A stretch of 64,000 bases of DNA from Salarchaeum sp. JOR-1 (GTDB lineage: Archaea > Halobacteriota > Halobacteria > Halobacteriales > Halobacteriaceae): contig NZ_CP042241.1 in assembly GCF_007833275.1 (NCBI RefSeq), forward strand, positions 1,364,001-1,428,000, given 5' to 3'. Under the pieces are notes generated by a model. The model had not been told where the DNA came from and did not search any database. It was given only the letters and a program-made list of their open reading frames with translations. The position numbers were made by a program, and so were the translations under genes. Shown here in pieces: positions 51,220-55,049 of the stretch (positions are counted from its first letter, which is position 1; every line of letters starts with the position of its first letter).

Positions 51220-52058
51220 AGGAACGCGCGTAGTTCCTCGGTATAGGCCTTCGGTCTGTCCTCCATCACCCAGTGGTAGGCGTCGTCGAGCGTCACGACC
51301 TCGCCCGCCCCGGACACGTCCTCGGCGAGCCACTCCGCGTAGGACACCGGTTGGAGGATGTCGTCGCCCCCCCACAGACAGAGCGTGTCCGCGGTTATTT
51401 CAGCGTAGTCGAGTTCCGTGGTGTGATTCGTGTTCGTCGCGACCGCACACCGCGAGAGCGACCTACGGCCCGCGTCGGTCATCCACGGGGCTTTCATGCC
51501 CTCGATGAACTCGGCGTGCTCGGACTCGTCGCCGTGCACGCCACCACCGAACGCGAAGTCGAGGTTCTCTTCGAGTTCGTCGAACGGCAGTTCGGCCGTC
51601 CCCGGGAGGCCGAGGTCGTTGACGAACTCGACCGGCCACGAGTCGTAACACACCGCGTTCGACACGACGAGCGTCGACACCGCTTCGGGGCTGTGCGCGG
51701 CGTACCGGCTGGCGACGCCGCCGCCGATGTCGTGGCTCACGAGGTTCAGGGGCGTCGCGATGTCGAGTTCGTCGACCAGCCCTTCGATGACCTGCTCTTG
51801 GGCGCGGATGGAGCGGTCGAAGCCGTCGGTTTTCTCGCTCGACCCGTAGCCCGCGAGGTCGGGGACGACGACCCGGTAGTCGTCCGTGAACTCGGGCGCG
51901 ACCTCCCGCCAGAGGAACCCCCAGGTCGGGATGCCGTGAACGAACACGAGCGGCTCGCCGTCCGCGGGCCCGTCCTCGTAGTACGCGATCTCGACACGGT
52001 GGCCGTCCACGTCGACCGTGACGGTGTCCTGTCGCGTGCGGTACTCTTCGTGGTTCAT
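51216..52058 (-). CDS. Alpha/beta hydrolase of the epoxide hydrolase/dehalogenase type
   Basis: 280 residues. HGIPTWGFLWREV (41-) is the oxyanion hole, and the nucleophile elbow reads VSHDIGGG, giving Asp110 rather than Ser. An Asp nucleophile means epoxide hydrolase, haloalkane or fluoroacetate dehalogenase chemistry. The halide-binding Trp that follows the Asp in haloalkane dehalogenases is Ile here. The catalytic His lies in DAYHWVMEDRP near residue 265. It is sandwiched between the regulator gene (four-base overlap) and the acyl-CoA dehydrogenase (one-base overlap). Confidence 0.87.
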   Translation of the reverse strand: MNHEEYRTRQDTVTVDVDGHRVEIAYYEDGPADGEPLVFVHGIPTWGFLWREVAPEFTDDYRVVVPDLAGYGSSEKTDGFDRSIRAQEQVIEGLVDELDIATPLNLVSHDIGGGVASRYAAHSPEAVSTLVVSNAVCYDSWPVEFVNDLGLPGTAELPFDELEENLDFAFGGGVHGDESEHAEFIEGMKAPWMTDAGRRSLSRCAVATNTNHTTELDYAEITADTLCLWGGDDILQPVSYAEWLAEDVSGAGEVVTLDDAYHWVMEDRPKAYTEELRAFL

Positions 52059-53203
52059 CAGAGTATCTGGCCGGCGATGATGTTCTTCTGGATCTCCGAG
52101 GTGCCCTCGTAGATCTTCGTGATGCGGGCGTCACGGTAGTAGCGCTCGACGGGGTGGTCGGTGACGAACCCGGCGCCGCCGTGCACCTGAATCGCGTCGT
52201 CCGCGACGTCCACGGCGTTCTCGGACGCGGTGAGTTTCGCCATCGACGCGAACCGCGTCGCCTCCTGGTCGTTCCCGTTATCGACCGCCGCCGCGGCGCG
52301 GTACGTGAGCGATCGCGCGGCCTCCGTGTTCGCCGCCATCTCCGCGATCATGTGGCTGACCGCCTGGTAGTCCTTGATGAGCTGTCCGCCCTGCTCGCGC
52401 TCGTTCGAGTACGCCTTCGCCTCGTCGATGGCGGCCTGCGCGACCCCGACGGCCTGGGACGCGACGCTCGTCCGACCGGACGCGAAGAAGTCCATCAGCT
52501 GATAGAACCCCTTGTTCACGTCGCCGATGACGTTCTTCTCGGGCACGCGCACGTCGTTCAACTGCACCTCGGCGAGGTCGCTCGCGCGAATCCCGAGCTT
52601 GTTGTCGATCTTCGTCGTCTCGAACCCGTCGGTGTCCGTGGGCACGAGGAACGCCGTGATACCCTTGCGCTGGGGTTCGACGTCCGTATCGGTCTTCGTC
52701 ATCACGACGGCGACGTCCGCGACCGTGCCGTTCGTGATCCACATCTTGTTCCCGTTGATGACGTACTCGTCGCCGTCCTTCTCCGCGACCGTCTCGATGC
52801 CGGCGACGTTCGAGCCGTGCGCGGGTTCGCTGATGCAGGAACAGCACGCGGACTCGCCGTTCGCGATCCTCGGCAGCCACTCCTCCTTCATCCACTCGTC
52901 GCCGTACTTCCGAATCATGTTCGACCCGAACCCCCGAGAGCCGATTGCGCTCCCGATACCAGGGTCGGCCCGCCACAACTCCTCGGTGACGATGACGCTG
53001 GAGAGCGTGTCCATCCCCGCGCCACCGTACTCGACGGGAATTCCGGGTGCGACGAAGTCGAACTCCGCCGCCTTCTCGATGAGGTCGATGGGATACGACT
53101 TGTTCTCGTCGTGCTCGCGCGCCACCGGCTCGATCTCGTTCTCGCCGAACTCGCGAACCGCCTCCCGGATCGCCTGATGCTCGTCTGAGAGCTGGAAACT
53201 CAT
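52058..53203 (-). CDS. Acyl-CoA dehydrogenase
   Basis: 381 residues, full length for the medium-chain type. The substrate-region motif reads SEPAHGSNVAG, close to the canonical TEPGAGSD, and the C-terminal catalytic-Glu motif is YEGTSEIQKN. It should oxidise an acyl-CoA at the alpha-beta carbons and pass electrons to an electron-transfer flavoprotein. The ATG at 53203 is at the predicted transcription start behind the TATA box at 53234-53226. First gene of the dehydrogenase-hydrolase-regulator operon. Confidence 0.92.
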   Translation of the reverse strand: MSFQLSDEHQAIREAVREFGENEIEPVAREHDENKSYPIDLIEKAAEFDFVAPGIPVEYGGAGMDTLSSVIVTEELWRADPGIGSAIGSRGFGSNMIRKYGDEWMKEEWLPRIANGESACCSCISEPAHGSNVAGIETVAEKDGDEYVINGNKMWITNGTVADVAVVMTKTDTDVEPQRKGITAFLVPTDTDGFETTKIDNKLGIRASDLAEVQLNDVRVPEKNVIGDVNKGFYQLMDFFASGRTSVASQAVGVAQAAIDEAKAYSNEREQGGQLIKDYQAVSHMIAEMAANTEAARSLTYRAAAAVDNGNDQEATRFASMAKLTASENAVDVADDAIQVHGGAGFVTDHPVERYYRDARITKIYEGTSEIQKNIIAGQIL

Positions 53204-53225
53204 ACGCGACAATTACGCTCTACCG

Positions 53226-53234
53226 TTTAATAAG
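53226..53234 (-). promoter_or_regulatory. TATA element of the acyl-CoA dehydrogenase operon
   Basis: CTTATTAAA on the minus strand, centred 27 bases before the ATG at 53203. This implies a leaderless mRNA. The AT-rich patch continues to about 53262. Confidence 0.6.
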
Positions 53235-53326
53235 TTTGCAAGAATTCTATTTTCGTTAACCGACGGGGGTGTCGTCCGCTCCGACACGGCCGTCCCTTGT
53301 CCGGCCACTCCGAAGAGAGACCATGG

Positions 53327-53371
53327 CTCGCGGCTCACGGCGCTCGCCGCTCGTCTGTTCGGCGACGCCTC
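53327..53371. repeat. 45-base direct repeat, copy 1
   Basis: The 45 bases match 53434-53478 at 43 positions; the two differences are C/T changes at 53343 and 53354. Both begin CTCGCGGCTCACGG. The element lies between the acyl-CoA dehydrogenase promoter and the acyl-CoA ligase end and contains GGCG...CGCC inverted bits. It may be a dispersed element, as no coding sense is visible. Confidence 0.7.
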
Positions 53372-53410
53372 CTCCTCACGGGTCGCACCGCTCCCCGTTC
53401 GGACGTTCGG

Positions 53411-53427
53411 TCAGCCCTGCGGGCTGA
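53411..53427. terminator. Perfect hairpin between repeat copies
   Basis: TCAGCCC (53411-53417) and GGGCTGA (53421-53427) pair around TGC. It is 69 bases beyond the stop of the acyl-CoA ligase, on whose transcript it would fold. No T-run follows. Confidence 0.4.
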
Positions 53428-53433
53428 CTACGT

Positions 53434-53478
53434 CTCGCGGCTCACGGCGTTCGCCGCTCGCCTGTTCGGCGACGCCTC
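53434..53478. repeat. 45-base direct repeat, copy 2
   Basis: Second copy of the 53327-53371 element in the same orientation, 107 bases on. It ends 17 bases from the stop of the acyl-CoA ligase gene. A partial further copy, GCTCGGCGTCGCC, follows at 53484-53496. Confidence 0.7.
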
Positions 53479-53495
53479 GCGTTGCTCGGCGTCGC

Positions 53496-55049
53496 CTACT
53501 CCTCTCCCGCGAGTTCGTACTTCTGGACCTTCCCGGTGGTGGTGCGCGGGAGTTCCTGCACGAACTCGACCTCCCGCGGGTGCTTGTAGGGCGCGAGGTT
53601 GTCGAGGCAGAACTGCTTGAGTTCGTCGGCGGTCACGTCGCCGTCGGGCGTCTTGACGACGAACGCTTTCACGGTTTCACCGCGGCGCTCGTCGGGGACG
53701 CCGACGACCGCCGCGTCGGCCACGTCCTCGTGTTCGAAGAGGAGTTCCTCGACCTCGCGCGGGTAGACGTTGTAGCCGCCCGTGACGATCATGTGCTTCT
53801 TCCGGTCGACCACGTAGAAGAACCCGTCCTCGTCGTGGTAGCCCACGTCGCCGGTGTGGAACCAGCGCTTGCCGTCCGCCTCCGTGAACGCTTCCTCGTT
53901 GGCCTCGGGGCGCTCGTAGTAGCCCTTCATGACGTTCGGCCCGGAGATGACGAGCTCGCCCGTGATCTCGTGGAGCGCGGCCTCGTCCTCGTCGACGGGG
54001 CCGTCCTCGACGGGGGCGATGGCGTTGAAGTCGTCGTCGACGATGCGGGCGTCGACGCCGGGGAGGGGTTTGCCGATGCTGCCGGGGCGGCGGTCGTCGG
54101 GGTGGTTGGCGTGCGTGATGGGGCTCGTCTCGGTGAGCCCGTACCCCTCGCAGAGCGGGACGTCGTACATGTCGTCCCAGGTTTCGAGGACTTCCATCGG
54201 GAGGCCGCTCCCGCCCGAGTTCGCGAACCGCAGGCTGGAGAAGTCGAACTCGGCGGCGTCCGGCTGATTGACGAGGTCGTTGTACATCGCGGGCACAGCG
54301 TGCAGGAGCGTGAGGTTCTCGCCCTCGATGAGGTCAACTGCGTCCTCGGCGTCCCACTCGGCCATGGGGTAGTACGCGCCGCCGTTGAACAGCGTCGCGT
54401 TCATCGTCACCGTCATCCCGTAAATGTGGAAGAGGGGAAGCACGCCGAGGTGGCGGTCGTCGCCGCGGATGCCGTCCGGAATGGGGTCGTCGGCCACGTC
54501 CGCGTCCCAGTAGAGGTTCTTGTGCGTCAGGAGGACGCCCTTCGGCGTGCCCGTCGTTCCGGACGTGTACGGCTGGCAGGCAACGTCGTCGTCGTCTCGC
54601 TTGACGGGGCCGAACGTGTCGTCCGCGAGGAACTCCTCGAACGCGGTCGAGGTCTCGGTCTCCGCGCCGACGGTGACGACGAACTCCACGTCGGTGTCCT
54701 CGCGCACGTCCTCGACGTGCTCGACGAGGCTCGGGAGGGTCACGACGGCGTTCGCGCCGGAGTCGCCGAGGAGGTGTTCGAGCTCGCGCGAGCGGTACTG
54801 TGGGTTCATCGGCACGACGATGCCGCCGGCGCGCATGATTCCGTGGAAGGCGGTGACGAACTGCGGGAGGTTCGGCAGGTACACCGCGACGCGGTCGTCG
54901 GGTTCGATGCCCTCGCGTTCGAGCGCTGCGGCGAACCGGCCGGTACGCTCCCAGAACTCCTCGTAGGTCTGTTCGCGTCCCTCGTGGTGGATGGCGACGT
55001 TCTCCGGGTGTTCGTCCACTGCGCTCTGGACGTGTTCGACGAGGTTCAT
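53496..55049 (-). CDS. Long-chain acyl-CoA ligase (AMP-binding)
   Basis: 517 residues. The ATP loop is YTSGTTGTPKGVLLTH, followed by GYGLTETSP, the adenylation GKRWFHTGDVGYHDEDGFFY region and the C-terminal lysine motif LPRTTTGKVQKYEL. It activates a fatty or other carboxylic acid via an acyl-AMP. It is divergent from the FMN-dependent hydroxyacid oxidase gene, with an inverted repeat in the shared promoter. Confidence 0.92.
   Translation of the reverse strand: MNLVEHVQSAVDEHPENVAIHHEGREQTYEEFWERTGRFAAALEREGIEPDDRVAVYLPNLPQFVTAFHGIMRAGGIVVPMNPQYRSRELEHLLGDSGANAVVTLPSLVEHVEDVREDTDVEFVVTVGAETETSTAFEEFLADDTFGPVKRDDDDVACQPYTSGTTGTPKGVLLTHKNLYWDADVADDPIPDGIRGDDRHLGVLPLFHIYGMTVTMNATLFNGGAYYPMAEWDAEDAVDLIEGENLTLLHAVPAMYNDLVNQPDAAEFDFSSLRFANSGGSGLPMEVLETWDDMYDVPLCEGYGLTETSPITHANHPDDRRPGSIGKPLPGVDARIVDDDFNAIAPVEDGPVDEDEAALHEITGELVISGPNVMKGYYERPEANEEAFTEADGKRWFHTGDVGYHDEDGFFYVVDRKKHMIVTGGYNVYPREVEELLFEHEDVADAAVVGVPDERRGETVKAFVVKTPDGDVTADELKQFCLDNLAPYKHPREVEFVQELPRTTTGKVQKYELAGEE

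Follow-up and report, generated by a model that had tools for sequence, protein, structure and literature searches.

Head-to-tail twin-hairpin units beside an acyl-CoA ligase gene of Salarchaeum sp. JOR-1 and a palindromic repeat dispersed through haloarchaeal genomes

By description, the nearest haloarchaeal relatives of the repeat reported here are the PATEs and terminal-only IS605-type elements of Haloquadratum walsbyi, which carry palindromes, are free of a transposase and have no terminal inverted repeats or target duplications (PMC3119063, available text). According to the same text, some terminal-only forms are 52 bp long, and mobility was inferred although 15/15 and 16/17 tnpA genes were disrupted. 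The palindromes of PATEs lie close to the termini and resemble the ends of IS605, and PATEs have a terminal stretch of 20–50 bp and a terminal oligonucleotide (PMC3119063, available text). The present repeat consists of two hairpins joined by a short linker, occurs order-wide and lies in frame in genes; it differs from PATEs as they are described, but may nonetheless belong with them. REP and REPIN sequences are similar in being short, high-copy extragenic palindromes, often doublets, with predicted single-strand hairpins and occasional copies in genes (PMC3733652 and PMC3116915, both in the parts available), but here two dissimilar hairpins stand in direct order and are not inverted copies. 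In the available text of the REP survey (PMC3733652), the word 'archaea' occurs in the reference list only. A MITE would have inverted repeats at its ends, derived from a parent transposon; the present unit is made of two separate hairpins and not of one inverted pair.

Rickettsia palindromic elements (RPEs) are palindromic repeats found in frame in many unrelated genes, to which they add a conserved peptide, and are about 150 bp long (PMC10969869, available text); the present units share the in-frame habit and are set apart by size and description, being 47–65 nt long, archaeal, twin-hairpin and built with tandem G-A mismatches. The oligonucleotide d(GCGAAGC) is described as an extraordinarily stable DNA mini-hairpin (PMC10527192, available text); the apical module found here is likewise a GNA triloop, often GCGAAGC, but caps a genomic repeat family. 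On our best reading, the repeat would work like REP/REPIN and, in genes, like the Rickettsia elements. No earlier description of this twin-hairpin family was found in the literature searched, a search that left subscription journals largely outside.

The array at the ligase gene

The window analysed was a stretch of 64,000 nucleotides (contig NZ_CP042241.1, positions 1,364,001 to 1,428,000), and positions in the feature list are those of the window unless marked as contig. A 292-base gap separates an AMP-binding ligase gene from an acyl-CoA dehydrogenase gene, both on the minus strand. On that strand, directly 3' of the ligase stop codon, three head-to-tail twin-hairpin units of about 60 nt were identified using covariance model R1, which was built from 30 units; units 3 and 2 were among these and therefore match partly by construction, and unit 1 does not. 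The features were as follows.

53496..55049, minus strand: AMP-binding acyl-CoA ligase, upstream gene (Pfam PF00501, E 3.3e-97), with its stop codon abutting the array
52058..53203, minus strand: acyl-CoA dehydrogenase, downstream gene (Pfam PF00441, E 4.3e-51)
53433..53494, minus strand: unit 3, the closest of the three to the ligase stop codon and a full twin-hairpin element (model R1, 53.2 bits, E 5.4e-9, partly by construction)
53374..53432, minus strand: unit 2, in the middle, a full element whose hairpin A is different (model R1, 44.8 bits, E 3.6e-7, partly by construction)
53326..53372, minus strand: unit 1, truncated hairpin A with one arm left (53361-53369, by sequence; model R1, 39.7 bits, E 4.6e-6)
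53327..53371, minus strand: first 45-mer, spanning unit 1 from hairpin B through the linker into hairpin A (sequence comparison)
53434..53478, minus strand: second 45-mer, spanning unit 3 from hairpin B through the linker into hairpin A (sequence comparison)
53410..53428, minus strand: hairpin A belonging to unit 2, with a GCA triloop on an 8-bp stem (minus strand GTCAGCCC-GCA-GGGCTGAC; forward strand GTCAGCCC-TGC-GGGCTGAC)
53468..53496, minus strand: hairpin A belonging to unit 3; its 9-bp stem contains a GA/GA internal loop, and the G of TAG, the ligase stop codon, lies within the feature
53434..53460, minus strand: hairpin B of unit 3, an exact match to CGANNNNNGARCGNNGYGANNNNNGAG (contig 1417434-1417460)
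53375..53401, minus strand: hairpin B of unit 2 (contig 1417375-1417401; outer TCC/GGA, inner ACGGG/CCCGT, GC/GC)
53327..53353, minus strand: hairpin B of unit 1 (contig 1417327-1417353)

An initial annotation, made from the letters and open reading frames of the window, had reported two 45-base copies on both sides of a 7-pair hairpin, between the dehydrogenase and ligase genes, and a third partial copy following them. Both copies are real (53327-53371 and 53434-53478), with 2/45 positions differing and starts 107 bases apart, and their placement was borne out by the two Pfam families. The hairpin between them also exists, with eight pairs in its stem and not seven. A third member was found too, as the diverged middle unit (60% identical to the first); the stretch that comes after the second 45-mer on the forward strand is the remainder of that copy's own hairpin A (53468-53496). 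The core of the 45-mer occurs twice in the window without mismatch, while shuffles gave 0.17 occurrences on average with up to 3 mismatches allowed and reached two occurrences in 2/100; a chance origin of the duplicated 45-mers is unlikely. The hairpin B stem is ACGGG/CCCGT in unit 2 and GCGGC/GCCGC in units 1 and 3, so that compensatory changes are present within a single locus. A processed RNA, also suggested in the initial annotation, may apply as well; Rfam 15 returned one match only for positions 53100-53600, at 14.8 bits against a cut-off of 40.

The earlier proposal that the element is a target of rearrangement was partly supported by comparison of the same gap in relatives. It holds three units here and differently composed units in a genome of the same genus (G001), where two were seen by eye, one of them reaching the threshold of the model and having a hairpin A similar to unit 2's; in a more distant genome with the same gene order by reading (G007), no match to model R1 was found in the gap. 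Tandem arrays were also found elsewhere: this genome has a four-unit array at 656384-656635, and genome G023 has one of seven units that score equally and are spaced 77 bp apart.

Unit architecture, covariation and distribution

Each unit is defined on one strand only and runs from hairpin A through a linker of mostly 9–10 nt to hairpin B, with a length of about 47–65 nt. On that strand hairpin B has the form C-GA-stem-GA-RC-GNN-GY-GA-stem-GA-G, in which Watson-Crick segments alternate with tandem G-A/G-A mismatches, and it is usually capped by a GNA triloop (117/147 copies, often as GCGAAGC, the first G being set by the search pattern). GNA triloops would be expected to favour DNA over RNA. 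With copies of fewer than 4/6 pairs left out, a perfect hairpin A stem of at least 7 bp preceded hairpin B on the same strand in 45/75 copies, compared with 8/75 in windows about 200 nt further upstream. Measurements were taken on 44 units, excluding copies with fewer than 4/6 pairs, without a stem of 6 or with a linker outside 6–12 nt; the linker was 9–10 nt in 38 of these, 31 began with CGAG, and 28 distinct hairpin A arms were present. Hairpin A thus varies from place to place, and linker length and hairpin B are kept.

Covariation was scored on 147 distinct 27-mers (100 from the listed matches of the order search and 47 from those of the phylum search, the rest of the 648 order matches described below not being included). 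The proposed pairs form in 87.3% of cells, compared with 71.8% in shuffles that leave the kinship of the copies in place, and cells changed on both sides number 188 against 75. The covariation score was 0.423, compared with 0.177 in shuffles; it was reached in 0/500 shuffles and fell to 0.092 or less when the partners were slid. The number of pairs with change on both sides did not differ (6 versus 5.6 in shuffles). On the G-A strand of the same copies, G-T wobbles (58) exceed A-C mismatches (30), and the G-A strand is therefore taken as the folding strand.

Folding with RNA parameters gave z-scores against shuffles of −2.06, −2.89 and −0.54 for units 3, 2 and 1, respectively, and −2.96 for the complement of unit 2. 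With DNA parameters the corresponding values were −0.07, −1.74 and −0.95 (complement of unit 2, −2.65), units 3 and 1 being not clearly better than shuffles; folding programs may fail to reward sheared G-A pairs. Within a 416-kb sample of this genome (the window and 19 further stretches, 11/20 sources having been chosen because they held hits), hairpins with the apical module were counted 30 times in intergenic DNA (11% of the sampled sequence) and 14 times in coding sequence. For hairpins whose inner pair is unmatched the counts were 2 and 6, and for eleven control patterns together 0 and 33, respectively.

Model R1 identified 26 copies in this 2.5-Mb genome (best 150 first-look candidates scored), of which 18 lie outside called coding sequence. 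Matches were obtained in 33/40 genomes, namely this one and 39 relatives, with at least 105 in one of them (best 134 candidates scored per genome), and in none of 19 controls comprising 17 phylum genomes, a Streptomyces plasmid and a Rhizobium plasmid (best 150 scored). Outside the list of 26, the model also matched L151 18136-18211 (32.5 bits) and L153 8083-8126 (32.3 bits, antisense in a tandem gap) and, at 24 bits or less, L150 9660-9710 and L135 15198-15258, and the true copy number may be higher. Across 146 genomes of the order, among them the present one, pattern CGANNNNNGARCGNNGYGANNNNNGAG, with stem pairing not required, matched 648 times and its reversed control 35 times; eight pattern matches fell in this genome, three of them being the array units. 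No match was found in 163 phylum genomes outside the order, where the reversed control also gave none, so this outgroup comparison says little beyond base composition. A stricter hairpin B pattern found at least 120 stretches in a collection of 84,980 genomes, and all those listed have haloarchaeal titles. The suggestion in the initial annotation of a dispersed haloarchaeal repeat agrees with these results.

BLASTN of the 45 bases had been proposed as a check, with the absence of other copies counting against such a repeat. In this genome a DNA search with the 45-mer found no near-identical copies elsewhere, the next best matches having 79% identity over 47 bases or higher identity over at most 29 bases; a pattern of the 45-mer with 3 mismatches gave 41 matches against 37 for its reversed control, and BLASTN against plasmids gave short partial matches only. 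BLASTN would here wrongly indicate that there are no other copies, because copies elsewhere share structure more than sequence, and the structure-scored search finds 26. For the same reason, the conclusion that there is no family, drawn from the 45-mer DNA and pattern searches, was misleading.

Copies inside genes

The remaining 8/26 copies lie within called genes, all in the sense direction, and 7/8 are read in the same frame, giving peptides such as AERASGDEPRA. Six of the host genes were assigned by NCBIfam (lysX, trpA, sufD, hemL by the PRK00062 model, a fused ahbA/ahbB, and aroC), and two had no NCBIfam family at the limit used. In other genomes 15/16 coding matches are sense, and 11/15 are read in the SGERSDPR frame, some of them orthologous. 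The copies in aroC and sufD are identical at 47/48 positions although the host genes are unrelated; this near-identity is the clearest sign of recent copying.

Comparisons with homologues, in which TrpA and AroC were each aligned with their best solved homologue only, place extra residues at the element. TrpA has 20 extra residues relative to 5ey5, in which residues 110 and 111 are adjacent at this point, and AroC has 16 relative to 7rca. In the LysX family, among 28 loci from 23 genomes, the element is present only in this genome and in same-genus G001; two of the 26 loci without it (L118 and L119) carry other, different stretches at the same loop. For LeuRS, 18 loci were compared. Two, both outside this genome, have different units at a shared loop, 13 show no unit when read at that place, and in three, which neither search expression matched, the flanking halves lie 3–9 nt apart as judged from match coordinates. 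Loss of the stretch from the other LysX, LeuRS, TrpA and AroC genes, rather than gain of the element, may account for the same pattern. Further matches to model R1 were seen in LeuRS loci L226, L229 and L230 of other genomes, which suggests that leuS or its surroundings were hit more than once. A small gene without family match (L400, contig 302486) was also seen to hold one unit followed by the in-frame start of a second, similar repeat.

Origin of the repeat

The array is best explained as three head-to-tail units of a non-autonomous palindromic repeat dispersed through haloarchaeal genomes, probably copied via a single-stranded hairpin and locally amplified, and we hold this account to be probable as a whole. 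The folded G-A strand would be exposed as single-stranded DNA and then copied or transposed to a new site; a single-strand step is proposed because the G-A signature is confined to one strand, the mismatches are kept, and REP/REPIN and IS605-type models provide for it (PMC3116915 and PMC3119063, available text). The array beside the ligase gene may have grown by local duplication, through slippage or unequal recombination between hairpins. Copies would survive at the least harmful sites, such as gene ends, between genes and in frame in tolerant loops, where they would add a short hydrophilic peptide (SGERSDPR or AERASGDEPRA). Inspection of 23 flank pairs by eye revealed neither a target-site duplication nor a fixed boundary of insertion, exact unit ends not being defined.

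A resident Y1 transposase was considered as the motor of this process, and the idea was weakened by the lack of a copy-number correlation. Across 146 genomes the count of Y1 transposases (PF01797) was not correlated with the count of copies (rho 0.12, p 0.14); Y1 was found in 77/146 genomes, and 49 of the 69 genomes without a Y1 match have copies. The sole Y1 (IS200-type) match of this genome is at L185 (1274129-1274476), beside a TnpB-like ORF downstream of which hairpins are found, one with GCGAAGC on the opposite strand; unit-length similarity between this element and the repeat was not shown. Proximity of Y1 genes to copies was looked at in this genome only. GTAG was present at the foot of hairpin A in 8/44 units and TAG directly before hairpin A in 11/44, and a tandem pair at 1938710 repeats AGTAGG before each copy, so that a subset of units may carry a GTAG tag. 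A reading of the family as GTAG-REPs was weakened by the restriction of the tag to 8/44 units and by the lack of a Y1 link.

Tentatively, and with clearly less assurance than for the mobile repeat, it is conceivable that haloarchaea carry widespread twin-hairpin elements which sheared tandem G-A pairs and GNA caps maintain in a folded, single-stranded form, with hairpin A made anew at each locus. Such elements would spread without a resident Y1 transposase and preferentially in the sense direction, writing in-frame peptides into essential enzymes, and might be an archaeal counterpart of RPEs with a mechanism of its own.

In this genome, the G-A strand runs in the sense direction of the gene containing or preceding the unit at 17/19 loci, and several units start at the stop codon. 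Such strong sense orientation is not expected of indifferent DNA insertion, though selection could give it. Strict co-direction (12/14 loci in an early sample) failed in other genomes, where tandem gaps gave 11 sense and 7 antisense matches in one count and 5 and 4 in a second; the bias outside genes is weak there. Gene context was taken from a codon-usage gene caller, two runs of which disagree for 1917210 (CDS antisense versus divergent), 1768225 (convergent versus tandem) and 1047252 (CDS antisense versus CDS sense, AhbA and AhbB being found in the sense frame).

This orientation bears on an RNA reading, in which the units are 3'-UTR structures on the transcribed G-A strand that shield mRNA or tRNA trailers from exonucleases or aid termination, and in which selection on RNA structure replaces mobility. 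The sense orientation and the stop-codon starts seen here are consistent with it, as are the wobble excess that marks the G-A strand as the folding one and the better-than-shuffled RNA folding of units 3 and 2, and in a reporter assay in Haloferax volcanii one hairpin from a coding region halted 59% of transcripts (PMC7237163, available text). However, unit 1 folds no better than shuffles and the complement of unit 2 folds as well as the unit itself, of 72 matches at 70 loci in other genomes 14 fall between divergent genes and 16 in coding sequence, and the copies within trpA, aroC and lysX cannot be 3' UTRs. By sequence reading, no T-run follows any unit at the array locus, and an intrinsic terminator was dropped there on this account; a T-stretch is the main intergenic termination signal in PMC7237163 (available text). 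We regard the RNA reading as unlikely, though still as a serious contender.

Replication by-products, in which quasi-palindrome correction by template switching, together with slippage, makes and homogenises inverted repeats with no transposition, would fit the variety of hairpin A arms and the homogenised look of the four-unit array and of that in G023. We judge this origin very unlikely, as correction should erase the tandem G-A mismatches, which are kept, and would neither produce one and the same architecture at unrelated places throughout an order nor yield the near-identical copies in aroC and sufD. Least likely of all, the hairpins would be DNA binding sites for a chromosome-organising or recombination protein, kept after an initial spread, as the conserved hairpin B and spacing, the strong covariation and the share of convergent gaps (20/52 intergenic matches with known context, such gaps making up 19% of the gap length sampled in this genome) might suggest, but copy number differs widely within a single order, with values per genome from 0 to more than 100, copies within enzyme genes better suit a mobile repeat than a required site, and no candidate protein is known.

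If the mobile-repeat account holds, a structured mobile repeat would be the single source of some of the GC-rich DNA that separates haloarchaeal genes and of a set of odd insertions in haloarchaeal enzymes, and annotation could account for insertions such as those in TrpA, AroC, LysX and LeuRS. Plain sequence search would miss such a repeat, the family becoming visible only in a structure-scored search. Protein evolution driven by palindromes, known chiefly in Rickettsia, would become testable in genetically tractable archaea, and structural work would gain a natural family of tandem-GA/GNA hairpins with many variants.

Several duplications associated with hairpins were noted in passing. At L028 (1359987-1360208) and L067 (1043008), an apparent tRNA 3' end is repeated several times downstream of the gene, the repeats being separated by GA-module hairpins, with a 72-bp period at 1360052-1360208. 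At L076 (1904372), the last 45 or so bases of an apparent acyl-CoA dehydrogenase gene are duplicated around a GA-module hairpin just past the stop codon. Seven hairpins with a 52-bp period are present at L056-L062 (230787-231111), one capped by GAGCGGAGCGA and six by GAGCGAAGCGA.
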